From Kineosporiaceae bacterium SCSIO 59966 (GTDB lineage Bacteria > Actinomycetota > Actinomycetes > Actinomycetales > SCSIO-59966), in NCBI GenBank assembly GCA_020881835.1, contig CP052876.1, positions 2,666,001 through 2,730,000 on the forward strand: a DNA stretch of 64,000 nucleotides. The letters are read 5' to 3'. Shown here one piece after another: positions 5,913 to 15,170 of this stretch. Numbering within the stretch: position 1 is the first letter of the stretch; every line of letters begins with the position of its first letter. The translations under genes and the position numbers were made by a program. Below the pieces are notes generated by a model, which saw only the letters and a list, made by a program, of their open reading frames with translations, was not told the DNA's origin and did no database searches.

Positions 5913-6719
5913 TCCACGGCCACCGGCTCCCAGCGCATGACCCGGCGCAGCGCGGGGCGCAAGGCGCTGCGCCGCTACCTGCCCCCGCAGCACGGGGCGT
6001 GGGCCATGCTGCTGGTCCCCTACGCCGTCGGCGTCGTCCTCGCCGGCCCGGCGTGGCCGCACCTGCCGCTGCTCGTCGGCTGGCTGGCCGGCTACCTGCT
6101 GTCCTACTACGCGCTCCTTGCGGTGAAGACCCGGCGCCCGGGCCGGGTGCGCGACCAGCTGCGGCTCTACTCCGCCCTCGCCGCCCCCGCCCTGCTCGTT
6201 GTCGTCGTCGCCCGGCCCGTGCTGCTGTGGGCCGGGCCGGTCTTCGCCGTCCTCCTGGCCGTCAGCGCCTGGTACGCCTGGCGCCGGGACGAGCGCTCGA
6301 TCGTCAACGACCTGGCCGGGATCACCCAGGGCACGCTGATGATCCCGGTGGCCGCACTCGCCGGTGGTCTGCCGGCGACGGCGACGTGGCCGGTGTGGGC
6401 GGTGACGTGGCTCTACTTCGCCGGTACCGCCTTCTACGTCAAGACGATGATCCGCGAGCGCGGTCAGCGGTCCTGGTGGCTGGTGTCGGTGGGCTACCAC
6501 GTCGCCGCGGCCGCCGTCACCGTCGCAGTGGCGGCCACCGTCGCCGGAGCGCCGGCGGCCGTCACGACAGGCGTGCTGTTCGGCTGGCTGGCCGTGCGGG
6601 CGGCGGTGCTGCCGCGGTTCGCCCTGTCACCCAAGCAGGTCGGGATCCTCGAGATCGTGCACTCCGTCGTCCTGCTCGTCGTCCTCACGGTGGCACCCGG
6701 TCTCACGGCGGGTCGCTGA
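5910..6719 (+). CDS. YwiC-like family integral membrane protein
   Basis: A 269-residue protein with about eight hydrophobic segments. The conserved N-terminal LPPQHGAWAMLLVPY motif, the following LLSYYALLAVKTRR and the internal YAWRRDERSIVNDLAG loop match the YwiC-like family, whose function is not known. ATG 5910 is chosen over an in-frame GTG at 5889 on promoter spacing. The 3' end overlaps the convergent dinB gene by 17 nt. Confidence 0.8.
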   Translation: MSTATGSQRMTRRSAGRKALRRYLPPQHGAWAMLLVPYAVGVVLAGPAWPHLPLLVGWLAGYLLSYYALLAVKTRRPGRVRDQLRLYSALAAPALLVVVVARPVLLWAGPVFAVLLAVSAWYAWRRDERSIVNDLAGITQGTLMIPVAALAGGLPATATWPVWAVTWLYFAGTAFYVKTMIRERGQRSWWLVSVGYHVAAAAVTVAVAATVAGAPAAVTTGVLFGWLAVRAAVLPRFALSPKQVGILEIVHSVVLLVVLTVAPGLTAGR

Positions 6720-11929: not shown

Positions 11930-11952
11930 GCCGGTCCCGGCCGCGGCCCAGC

Positions 11953-12360
11953 GTGGACCCGGCGGTCCTGGGCGTCGTCGCCGCCGGCGGCGCCCTCGGC
12001 GCCTCGGCCCGGTACGCCCTGGCGCTCGCCGTCCCCTGGGGCGGCAGCGGCGTTCCCTGGGCCACGTTGACGGCGAACGTCCTGGGGTGCCTGCTGATCG
12101 GCGTCCTCATGGGGGTGCTCGTGCGGCACGGCCCGCCGGGCCCCGAGCCGGCGGTGCACCGGCTGGTGCGGCCCTTCGTCGGGGTCGGCGTTCTCGGCGG
12201 GTTCACGACCTTCTCGACGACCCTGCTCGAGTCCGCCCGGCTGGCCGACGGCGGCGGGTCGTGGGAGGCCGCCGGGTACCTCGTCGGGACGACGGTGGCG
12301 GCGCTCCTCGCCGTGCACGTCGGGGTGCGCGGGGCCCAGCGCGCGGGGCGTGGCCGGTGA
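11953..12360 (+). CDS. crcB: Fluoride channel subunit CrcB/Fluc (first copy)
   Basis: A 135-residue protein with four hydrophobic helices. It has the family signatures GGALGASARYAL, TLTANVLGCLLIG and the GFTTFSTTLLE turn motif where Phe and Thr line the fluoride pore. GTG 11953 gives the expected length. It overlaps the second crcB by 4 nt (GTGA), the usual arrangement for Gram-positive heterodimeric Fluc channels. Only 23 nt separate it from the SDR gene, leaving no room for a fluoride riboswitch. Confidence 0.9.
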   Translation: MDPAVLGVVAAGGALGASARYALALAVPWGGSGVPWATLTANVLGCLLIGVLMGVLVRHGPPGPEPAVHRLVRPFVGVGVLGGFTTFSTTLLESARLADGGGSWEAAGYLVGTTVAALLAVHVGVRGAQRAGRGR

Positions 12361-12731
12361 CCTGGTTGCTCGTCGTCCTAGGGGCCGCCGTGGGCGCCGT
12401 CCTGCGCTACCTGCTCGACGCGTGGGTGAACCCGGTGAGCGGGCGGGCCCTGCCGCTGGGGACGTTGCTCGCCAACGGGACCGGGACGCTGCTGGCGGCT
12501 GCCGTCGCCGGGGCCGCCCTCCCGAGCGCGGCGGCCGTCGCGGTGGGGATCGGGGTCGCCGGGTCGCTGACGACGTACAGCACGTTCAGCTACGAGGCCT
12601 TCCGGCTGGACGCCGAGGGGGTCCGGCCGCTCGCCGTCGGGTACGTGCTGGTGACTCTCGCGGTCGGCGTCGCCGCGGTGCTCGCCGGGACGGCGCTCGG
12701 CGGCCTGCTCGGCGAGGCGGTCCACGGGTGA
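12357..12731 (+). CDS. crcB: Fluoride channel subunit CrcB/Fluc (second copy)
   Basis: A 124-residue, four-helix CrcB homologue with LGAAVGAVLRYLLD, LGTLLANGTGTLL and SLTTYSTFSYEAF. The two subunits are oppositely oriented partners in the known dual-topology dimer. Start GTG 12357 is fixed by the 4-nt overlap with the first copy. Confidence 0.9.
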   Translation: MTWLLVVLGAAVGAVLRYLLDAWVNPVSGRALPLGTLLANGTGTLLAAAVAGAALPSAAAVAVGIGVAGSLTTYSTFSYEAFRLDAEGVRPLAVGYVLVTLAVGVAAVLAGTALGGLLGEAVHG

Positions 12732-12844: not shown

Positions 12845-12850
12845 TAGCGT
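12845..12850 (+). promoter_or_regulatory. Putative -10 box ahead of the leader-peptide/cystine transporter unit
   Basis: TAGCGT at 12845-12850 would give a transcript starting near 12857, with a leader of about 30 nt before the small ORF. No convincing -35 is visible. The call is tentative. Confidence 0.35.
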
Positions 12851-12885
12851 TCCGCCAGCACGACGACACCCGGAGGACAGCACCG

Positions 12886-12978
12886 ATGCGGATCTGCCAG
12901 TGCCAGCGGCAGAACCAGGTCCAGCGCAGGCACGTCGACCTGCTGCGGACCTGCACCGCGCTGTGTCGTCTCGGCTGA
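12886..12978 (+). CDS. Putative regulatory leader peptide (RRHVDLLR family)
   Basis: A 30-residue ORF with a good ribosome site (GGAGG, 9 nt before ATG 12886). It is rich in Gln/Arg and carries four Cys (residues 4, 6, 23, 27). The block RRHVDLLRTCTALC matches the actinobacterial leader peptides (RRHxDLxR...LC) found upstream of sulfur-assimilation and cysteine-related genes. Its stop is 105 nt before the transporter start. In between are a perfect palindrome (13023-13034) and a CGGTGC/GCACCG hairpin (13042-13059) close to the transporter ribosome site. The likely role is cysteine-dependent translational control; this is inference. Confidence 0.7.
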   Translation: MRICQCQRQNQVQRRHVDLLRTCTALCRLG

Positions 12979-13083
12979 GCCCCAGGCCTGCCTGCCCCGC
13001 CGGTGACCCCGGTCCCTGCTGCGCGCTCGAGCGCCGCCGACCGGTGCGTGCCGGCACCGCTCCGTCGTATCCGAGAGGTACCC

Positions 13084-14526
13084 ATGACCACCCGTCCCAC
13101 CACGGACGACGCCCCCGCGCGCCGCCGGTCCCGAAACCCCTTCACCGCCGTCCCGTTCAGCGTCCAGGTGCTCGTCGGCCTCGTGCTCGGCGTCGTCCTC
13201 GGCCTCGTCGCCCGCTCGATGGGCACAGTCGGCCCGGAGCAGGACCCGAACTGGCTCACGACGACGCTCGACACGATCGGCGGCGCCTTCGTCACCCTGC
13301 TGCGCGCCGTCGTCCCACCGCTGGTGTTCCTCGCCATCGTGGCGAGCATCGCCAACCTGCGGCAGGTCACCGACGCTGCCCGCCTGGCCGGCCGGACCCT
13401 GCTGTGGTTCGCGATCACGGCCCTGTTCTCCGTCAGCATCGGCATCGCTCTCGGCCTGCTGACGAACCCCGGCCTCAACACGGGTGTGGACGCCGGCGCC
13501 GCCGGCGAGCCGTCCAGGACAGGCTCCTGGCTGGACTTCCTCGTCGGCATCGTGCCGGGCAACGTGCTCGGCCTGCAGGCGTCGACCTCGGAGGGCGCCG
13601 ACGGGTCGCTGAGCACCGGCCTGTCGTTCAACGTCCTGCAGATCATCGTCGTGGCCGTGGCGGTCGGCGTCGCGGCGCTCAAGGTGGGCCGGGCGGCCGA
13701 GCCGTTCCTGGCCTTCAGCCGCTCCGCGCTGGCGGTGGTCCAGAAGGTGCTGTGGTGGATCATCCGGCTCGCACCGCTCGGCACCGTCGGCCTGCTCGGC
13801 CGGGCGGTGGCGAGCTACGGCTGGGACGCCCTGGCGCCGCTCGGGGTGTTCGTCGCCGACGTGTACGTCGGCCTCGCGCTCGTGCTCTTCGTGCTCTACC
13901 CGGTCCTGCTGCGGCTCAACGGGCTCAGCCCGCTGCGGTACTTCGCGGCTGCCTGGCCGGCCATCCAGCTCGGCTTCGTCTCCCGCTCCTCGATCGGCAC
14001 GCTGCCGGTGACCGAGCGGGTGACCGAGCGGAACCTCGGCGTCCCACGGGCCTACGCCTCGTTCGCCGTGCCGCTCGGCGCGACGACGAAGATGGACGGG
14101 TGCGCCGCGATCTACCCGGCGCTGGCCGCCATCTTCGTGGCGCAGTTCTTCGGCGTGGAGCTCGGTGTCACCGACTACCTGCTGATCGCGTTCGTGTCGG
14201 TCATCGGCTCTGCCGCGACCGCGGGCGTCACCGGAGCCGTCGTCATGCTGACGCTCACCCTGTCCACGCTCGGGCTGCCGCTCGAGGGCGTCGGCCTGCT
14301 GCTCGCCGTGGACCCGATCCTCGACATGGGCCGGACGGCGGTGAACGTCGCCGGTCAGGCGCTCGTGCCGACGATCGTCGCCAAGCGCGAGGGCATCCTC
14401 GACGAGGCCGTCTACGCCGCGGCGAACGCCAAGGACCCGTTCGCCGACGAACCGCTCGACCCGGACCTCGTGGAGCCGGTCACCCGGTCGGACGAGCGGG
14501 CACCGGCGGGCGCGTCCGGCGCCTGA
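13084..14526 (+). CDS. DAACS-family cation symporter, probably L-cystine transporter (TcyP-like)
   Basis: A 480-residue protein with 8 or so transmembrane helices and two re-entrant loops typical of dicarboxylate/amino acid:cation symporters. The serine-rich loop SRSSIGTLPVT is present. GATTKMDGCAAIYPALAAIF replaces the NMDGTA... motif of glutamate/C4-dicarboxylate members, and GCAxIYPA is closer to cystine transporters of the TcyP group. The upstream Cys-bearing leader peptide supports cystine. Dicarboxylate remains an alternative. ATG 13084 follows GAGAGG by 5 nt. Confidence 0.8.
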   Translation: MTTRPTTDDAPARRRSRNPFTAVPFSVQVLVGLVLGVVLGLVARSMGTVGPEQDPNWLTTTLDTIGGAFVTLLRAVVPPLVFLAIVASIANLRQVTDAARLAGRTLLWFAITALFSVSIGIALGLLTNPGLNTGVDAGAAGEPSRTGSWLDFLVGIVPGNVLGLQASTSEGADGSLSTGLSFNVLQIIVVAVAVGVAALKVGRAAEPFLAFSRSALAVVQKVLWWIIRLAPLGTVGLLGRAVASYGWDALAPLGVFVADVYVGLALVLFVLYPVLLRLNGLSPLRYFAAAWPAIQLGFVSRSSIGTLPVTERVTERNLGVPRAYASFAVPLGATTKMDGCAAIYPALAAIFVAQFFGVELGVTDYLLIAFVSVIGSAATAGVTGAVVMLTLTLSTLGLPLEGVGLLLAVDPILDMGRTAVNVAGQALVPTIVAKREGILDEAVYAAANAKDPFADEPLDPDLVEPVTRSDERAPAGASGA

Positions 14527-14534
14527 TCGCCACA

Positions 14535-14598
14535 CCAGGAGGACCGGGACGCCGGAACCGGACGGTGTTCGTCGTCCGGACCGCCCCGGTCCTCCTGG
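14535..14598 (+). terminator. Large inverted repeat, probable terminator after the transporter
   Basis: The arms CCAGGAGGACCGGG (14535-14548) and CCCGGTCCTCCTGG (14585-14598) pair perfectly over 14 bp. A nested CCGGAC/GTCCGG stem lies within. It starts 9 nt after the stop codon. There is no T-tract, as is common for GC-rich actinobacterial terminators. Confidence 0.65.
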
Positions 14599-14660
14599 CC
14601 CGGCGATCTCTAGGGGTGCTCCGCGGTCCGAGGCCGTGGGTGGCCCCTTACCGTGCGGGC

Positions 14661-15170
14661 TCAGCAGTCGCAGCCGCACTCCTCTGGCGGACAGGTGGGG
14701 TCCTCGCAGCAGTCCACGGTCAGGTCCAGCGTCATCATCGTCACCTCCTCTGGCGTTGGTGGGCACCACGTTCCGGGGGCGGGCGGGGGACAGTCCTCGT
14801 CAGGCAGGGCGTCCCGCATCGCAGCCATCTCGGTGCGCAGCGCGGTCAGTCGAGTGATCTCGGCGTCGACCTCCGCCATGCGGCGGGACAGCAGGTGCTC
14901 GGCAGGTTCACAGGGACACCGGCCGGTGTCCCGGACGGTCAGCAGGTCCCGGATGTCGGCGAGCCTCAGCCCCAGCCGCTGCGCCCCCTGGACGAATCGG
15001 AGCCGGTCGACGTCCGCGGCGTCGTACTGCCGGTACCCGGCCGGAGTCCGCTCGGGCTGCGGCAGCAGCCCGAGCTTCTCGTAGTAGCGGACGGTGCCCG
15101 GTTTCACGCCGACGGCAGCGGCGAGCTCGGCAACCCGCATCCCGCCTCCGGAGCCCGTCCTCGTCGTCAT
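14661..15170 (-). CDS. MerR-family metal-responsive-type regulator with Cys-rich tail
   Basis: A 169-residue protein. The winged HTH begins RVAELAAAVGVKPGTVRYYEKLGLL, followed by RTPAGYRQYDAADVDRLRFV and a dimerisation helix with a GRCPCEPAEHLL motif, where MerR metal sensors place ligand Cys. The C-terminal 35 residues are unusual: seven Cys within a Pro/Glu/Asp-rich tail ending CGCDC. Which metal it senses cannot be told. No metal pump is adjacent. Its own promoter carries a MerR-type operator. The start is ATG 15170; MRVAEL at 15140 is an alternative. Confidence 0.85.
   Translation of the reverse strand: MTTRTGSGGGMRVAELAAAVGVKPGTVRYYEKLGLLPQPERTPAGYRQYDAADVDRLRFVQGAQRLGLRLADIRDLLTVRDTGRCPCEPAEHLLSRRMAEVDAEITRLTALRTEMAAMRDALPDEDCPPPAPGTWCPPTPEEVTMMTLDLTVDCCEDPTCPPEECGCDC

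Follow-up and report, generated by a model that had tools for sequence, protein, structure and literature searches.

A conserved leader peptide with a preferred UGU codon precedes an SDF-family symporter gene in Kineosporiaceae bacterium SCSIO 59966 and may act as a cysteine-responsive attenuator

The locus and its transporter

The window analysed here is a stretch of 64,000 nucleotides (CP052876.1, positions 2,666,001 to 2,730,000) from the complete 3.1-Mb, high-GC genome of the actinobacterium Kineosporiaceae bacterium SCSIO 59966, for which relatives were sampled from other families of the same order. On its forward strand, a short leader open reading frame (ORF) lies ahead of a gene for an SDF-family symporter, the start of which at 13084 is positioned 105 nt past the leader stop. 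The 30-codon ORF with a ribosome site noted in a preliminary description of this DNA is indeed present at 12886-12978, behind a GGAGG sequence and a 9-nt spacer. The features of the locus are the following:

12872-12876, + strand: Shine-Dalgarno sequence GGAGG of the leader ORF, 9 nt ahead of the ATG (from the sequence)
12886-12978, + strand: leader peptide ORF of 30 amino acids, MRICQCQRQNQVQRRHVDLLRTCTALCRLG, with stop codon TGA (from profile match and conservation)
12925-12948, + strand: conserved peptide core RRHVDLLR, with amino acids kept and codons varying synonymously
12964-12966, + strand: codon +10, TGT (Cys27), putative pause site (from codon counts across leaders)
12979-13070, + strand: spacer rich in C (0.47) and poor in G (0.33), putative loading region for Rho
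12999-13055, + strand: predicted stem-loop, no more stable than shuffled sequence (from folding energy)
13073-13078, + strand: Shine-Dalgarno sequence GAGAGG of the transporter (from the sequence)
13084-14526, + strand: SDF-family (PF00375) symporter of 480 amino acids in a clade of its own, predicted substrate a sulfur amino acid

Immediately 5' of the leader, two overlapping, adjacent genes for CrcB-type fluoride channels (11947-12731, + strand) probably encode a heteromeric pair. Directly past the transporter stop lies a long inverted repeat without a T-run (14525-14608), which may form the 3' end of the transporter mRNA; an Rfam and riboswitch search yielded only weak, miRNA-type chance matches at this repeat, on both strands. 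Convergent with the transporter gene is a gene for a MerR-family regulator of the metal type (MerR/CadR/ZntR-like, 14661-15170, - strand), the C-terminal tail of which is very rich in cysteine (DCCEDPTCPPEECGCDC).

The transporter is a member of the SDF family, with a score of 331.7 bits against the profile PF00375 (gathering threshold 27.9), and falls far under every cut-off of the NCBIfam SDF models (DctA, GltP, SstT). Its identity to the E. coli proteins is 30.6% for TcyP, 28.8% for GltP, 26.7% for SstT and 25.8% for DctA. With TcyP (YdjN), the E. coli cystine/sulfocysteine symporter, it has in common the GCAxxYPA motif of TM7 and the SRSS motif of HP1, neither of which is shared by E. coli DctA or GltP, and it retains the DMGRT motif in TM8, as TcyP does. 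However, the two are only distantly similar. In the tree the window transporter and its orthologues from actinobacteria and Alphaproteobacteria make up a separate, deeply branching clade that includes neither TcyP nor DctA/GltP, and the branches in between are too long to settle the deep branching order. A classification as TcyP was rejected, as the tree does not group the two proteins and their clades are separated by long branches. Among proteins of solved structure, the closest by sequence are transporters of aspartate and glutamate. The preliminary description had called the transporter cystine-type on account of a GCAAIYPA sequence; this sequence is present and the TM7 and HP1 motifs are TcyP-like, but with about equal identity to TcyP and GltP and a clade of its own, the designation is weakly supported. 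Cystine is thus a plausible substrate and no more than a fair guess, since the resemblance to TcyP is confined to local motifs, while the strongest hint that the transporter carries a sulfur compound is the presence of the leader.

A leader peptide family with a preferred codon

The leader MRICQCQRQNQVQRRHVDLLRTCTALCRLG matches the NCBIfam family NF042934 ('putative leader peptide') with E=3.3e-5 and 23.4 bits, slightly below the curated cut-off of 27 bits, which bears out the RRHVDLLR...ALC signature recognised in the preliminary description. Against NF042936, the family of the Ms4527A leader, it scores 22.1 bits, with a cut-off of 45. Only two ORFs in the whole genome score well, the other being MSSVLVRRVHVDLLRTNSSLCRG (genome C1:1220336-1220389; L090 about 6328-6399), which reaches 27.4 bits against NF042934. 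This second leader also carries TGT at codon +10 (counted with the V of the VDL core as 0). It precedes a gene for an isopenicillin-N-synthase-like 2OG-Fe(II) dioxygenase, which may serve in sulfur scavenging.

Like other members of NF042934, the window leader is a short ORF just 5' of a gene in an actinobacterial host and contains the core RRHVDLxRxxxALC, but it differs by additional N-terminal cysteines (CQC). It is furthermore preceded by a Shine-Dalgarno sequence, whereas many of its relatives are leaderless in the sense that the 5' untranslated region is missing; among the relatives, a TANNNT sequence begins 14-15 nt ahead of the leader start in 27 of 55 cases.

Approximately 220 relatives were compared in all. 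For this comparison, the 500 nt 5' of the transporter relatives were scanned with a leader HMM that was built from the family leaders of the order and then iterated. A leader in the correct place and frame was found 5' of the orthologous transporter in 53 of the 105 loci of the first set, while the same HMM gave no match in 4167 control frames (reverse strand and shuffled). The four closest transporters in relatives from the order, from G034, G050 and G017 (81-82% identity) and G015 (80%), are all accompanied by a leader, as is that of G006. In a hold-out, a fresh set of transporter loci drawn from the class, the leader is present in 73 of 88 loci, with no matches on the opposite strand. It is absent from about half of the 105 first-set loci and from all Alphaproteobacteria sampled, though their transporter is otherwise close. 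Loss of the reading frame in relatives had been named beforehand as an observation that would speak against the leader; the frame is kept, together with the core RxHVDLxRxxxxxC, in a short ORF ahead of the gene. The invariant Arg after VDL is encoded by at least five different codons across the leaders, and since synonymous codons vary freely at invariant residues, the conserved entity is the peptide itself. The ORF at 12886-12978 is a real leader peptide of the sulfur and cysteine kind. The distance between leader and transporter is unusually long (about 230-250 nt) in the Cellulosimicrobium loci L054, L012, L014 and L022.

Taken over the order and the phylum, the genes located 3' of 107 leaders of the family form a sulfur regulon, in keeping with the sulfur-type neighbours that are a feature of NF042934. 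They encode sulfite/nitrite reductases and rhodaneses (12 each), cysteine synthases and luciferase-like monooxygenases (8 each), SDF symporters and family-5 binding proteins (7 each), proteins of the NMT1 type (5) and NlpA (MetQ) type (3), TauE (2), TauD (1) and a cysteine dioxygenase (1).

A single position within the leader stands out at the level of the codon. Among 151 distinct leaders, codon +10 is TGT in 131 and TGC in 3, with 17 leaders lacking a cysteine there; these counts are inflated by relatedness, though several separate lineages are represented. The hold-out leaders have TGT at codon +10 without exception (66 of 66), compared to 18 of 79 for cysteines elsewhere in the same leaders (Fisher p=7e-25), and the cysteine codons of the hold-out transporter genes are TGT in 3 of 35 cases. 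The window leader follows this pattern, with TGT for Cys27 and TGC for the remaining three cysteines. A relaxed codon composition as the origin of the UGU was ruled out, as the other leader codons mostly end in G or C and the other cysteines are mostly UGC. The preference for UGU may arise because the usual tRNA-Cys(GCA) reads this codon by wobble pairing and hence more slowly.

In 12 of the 17 leaders without a cysteine at +10, the peptide ends exactly at this position (TGA in 8, TAG in 4). Nine of the leaders before the orthologous transporter lack this cysteine; eight have their stop exactly at +10 and the ninth has TGG followed by a stop. Leaders that stop at +10 keep the core, as seen in Klenkia (L066, L069, L073), Modestobacter (L080), Blastococcus (L011, L013) and Kineococcus (L035), and the leader of G017 likewise stops at +10. 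What matters seems to be where the ribosome stands, namely with its A site at codon +10, and the stop variants hint at a component of arrest that is independent of cysteine decoding.

The spacer between leader and transporter

The RNA that follows the leader is biased toward C over G. Across full spacers between leader and transporter the C-minus-G skew is positive in 46 of 46 (mean 0.31), and it is likewise positive in 53 of 53 sixty-nucleotide windows of the first set, in 73 of 73 hold-outs and in 111 of 113 leaders before other genes. Upstream of the leader the skew is approximately zero; it is 0.03 in 30 actinobacterial orthologues lacking a leader and averages 0.04 in 129 generic gene upstream regions (p=2e-19). 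A C-rich spacer as a general actinobacterial trait is unsupported by the generic upstream regions and the leader-lacking orthologues, controls in which transcription start sites are unmapped. The shift in composition (C 0.53, G 0.25) begins about 15 nt past codon +10, which is approximately where the leading edge of a ribosome stalled at this codon would lie. The window's own spacer, with a skew of 0.18-0.24, ranks among the lowest of the set, a value that is modest and unremarkable alone, with 19% of the generic upstream regions reaching 0.18.

Rho loads onto C-rich, G-poor RNA, and a Rho gene is present in the genome, while a search for intrinsic terminators found none. A layout as in TnaC, with C-rich, G-poor RNA directly 3' of the leader and no intrinsic terminator, is therefore seen for the family and in modest form in the window. 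By its composition the spacer resembles a Rho-loading site, and the leader attenuator is probably Rho-coupled.

The hairpin near the ribosome site of the transporter, which the preliminary description had counted among the signs of translation-linked control, did not hold up. Positions 12999-13055 can fold into a stem-loop, but the folding energy is ordinary (z=-0.58, with 47 of 200 shuffles folding equally well) and the pairing over the transporter Shine-Dalgarno sequence is weak, so that this part of the observation amounts to no more than chance. In a simulation over 35 loci, a ribosome block at +10 did not raise Shine-Dalgarno accessibility (0.31 to 0.34, p=0.34), and in these loci accessibility did not differ between real and shuffled spacers. 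Sequestration of the Shine-Dalgarno sequence by the hairpin was rejected on the basis of this ordinary energy and the lack of release in the simulation, both of which come from single-sequence energy models that do not reach tertiary or kinetic structure.

A candidate attenuator and its alternatives

From these features we infer a cysteine-responsive, ribosome-pausing, cis-acting leader attenuator upstream of the SDF transporter, probably coupled to Rho, a reading that we regard as fairly probable on sequence evidence. The leader would be translated until the conserved UGU of Cys27 enters the A site; at that point the conserved HVDL-x-R segment of the nascent peptide would occupy the exit tunnel. 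A shortage of Cys-tRNA would make the ribosome pause at the UGU at +10, with the nascent peptide probably strengthening the pause. The ribosome would then cover the beginning of the C-rich spacer and keep Rho from loading, and the transporter would be transcribed. With ample cysteine, the ribosome would terminate a few codons later and leave, and Rho would stop transcription on the bare C-rich RNA. Translation-linked control by cysteine supply, as initially proposed for this locus, is the best reading of the sequence data. Some observations count against the model, besides the modest skew of the window and the leader's absence from about half of the first-set loci: stop-variant leaders cannot sense cysteine at +10, since they have no cysteine codon there; the three further cysteines of the window leader could also host a pause; and the C-rich spacer could also just keep the RNA unfolded.

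Short Cys-bearing ORFs ahead of sulfur genes are known from mycobacteria, where cysteine-rich uORFs precede cysA2, nirA and other genes and ribosome occupancy was seen at the cysA2 orthologue (PMC4633059). As cited in PMC13236596 (reference 47, Canestrari et al. 2020), Cys-responsive attenuation was demonstrated in M. smegmatis; the control of its cysteine genes is described as translational attenuation and not as Rho-dependent, which counts against the Rho step. The mycobacterial uORFs (nirA/Ms4527A, cysA2) resemble the window leader in position, and some share a VDLCR core; they have, however, runs of cysteine codons and are described as translational attenuators, whereas the window leader family combines one invariant UGU with a C-rich spacer. 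In E. coli tna, the rut site lies directly 3' of the leader ORF and a transporter is among the regulated genes (PMC10941005). TnaC is comparable by function, being a short peptide with conserved residues and a position-specific stall, with a Rho-loading site after the ORF, but it stalls at the stop codon and responds to free Trp; the likeness is one of layout and no homology is claimed. The window leader joins the mycobacterial-type cysteine leaders, with family-wide features pointing to a variant mechanism.

The mycobacterial precedent (M. smegmatis cysteine uORFs, cited in PMC13236596) lends itself to an alternative in which RNA structure masks the transporter ribosome site until a ribosome pausing on the cysteine codon frees it. 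The GAGAGG site can be paired into a weak stem, but the ordinary folding of the spacer, the negative result of the 35-locus simulation with its comparison to shuffled spacers, and the lack of conservation in spacer length and sequence make this unlikely, and the evidence favours a UGU pause combined with a Rho-type step rather than the unmasking of a sequestered Shine-Dalgarno sequence. About equally improbable is an arrest peptide that senses a small sulfur metabolite directly, comparable to TnaC and tryptophan, with UGU or a stop in the A site and codon hunger being secondary. In its favour are the conservation of L-T-x-R-x-[HA]-V-D-L-x-R at the peptide level under synonymous codon drift, the stops that several lineages have in exact place of the UGU, and a C-rich spacer that directly follows the leader, as in the tna layout (PMC10941005). 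Direct metabolite sensing would not need a UGU, however, and this codon is kept in 66 of 66 hold-out leaders and in 131 of 151 overall.

Rather doubtful, though somewhat less so than the two preceding readings, is the idea that the leader does regulate the transporter, but with a signal and substrate other than cysteine or cystine, such as an acidic amino acid or a different sulfur compound. The separate SDF clade, an identity of about 30% to TcyP and 29% to GltP, the DMGRT motif in TM8 and the aspartate/glutamate transporters as nearest solved relatives are in line with this idea; against it stand the position of the leader family mainly ahead of sulfur genes and the TM7 and HP1 motifs in common with TcyP. 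High-GC DNA commonly contains short ORFs and the family match lies under the curated cut-off, but a chance ORF with a coincidental motif can be given practically no weight, with ORFs of the same kind at the corresponding place in over 100 relatives and none in the control frames.

We know of no worked-out mechanism for leaders of the NF042934 family outside the mycobacterial polycysteine cases, and they are annotated merely as 'putative leader peptide'. Three features are simple and falsifiable: the invariant UGU, the stop codon that takes its exact place in some leaders, and a C-rich spacer that sets in at the ribosome edge. Through these, the choice between codon hunger, arrest peptide, Rho and translation becomes accessible to direct point-mutation tests. 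In addition, an uncharacterised transporter family is now linked to sulfur nutrition. More tentatively, as a possibility that we consider to fall short of likely, the whole actinobacterial RRHVDL family might constitute a nascent-chain-assisted pause device, with a UGU (rarely a stop) at +10 in the A site, nine codons past the conserved Asp, and with the pause shielding a Rho-loading site just beyond the ribosome edge. If so, arrest in the stop-codon variants would now be independent of cysteine decoding, and the sulfur regulon would be controlled without a dedicated regulator protein.
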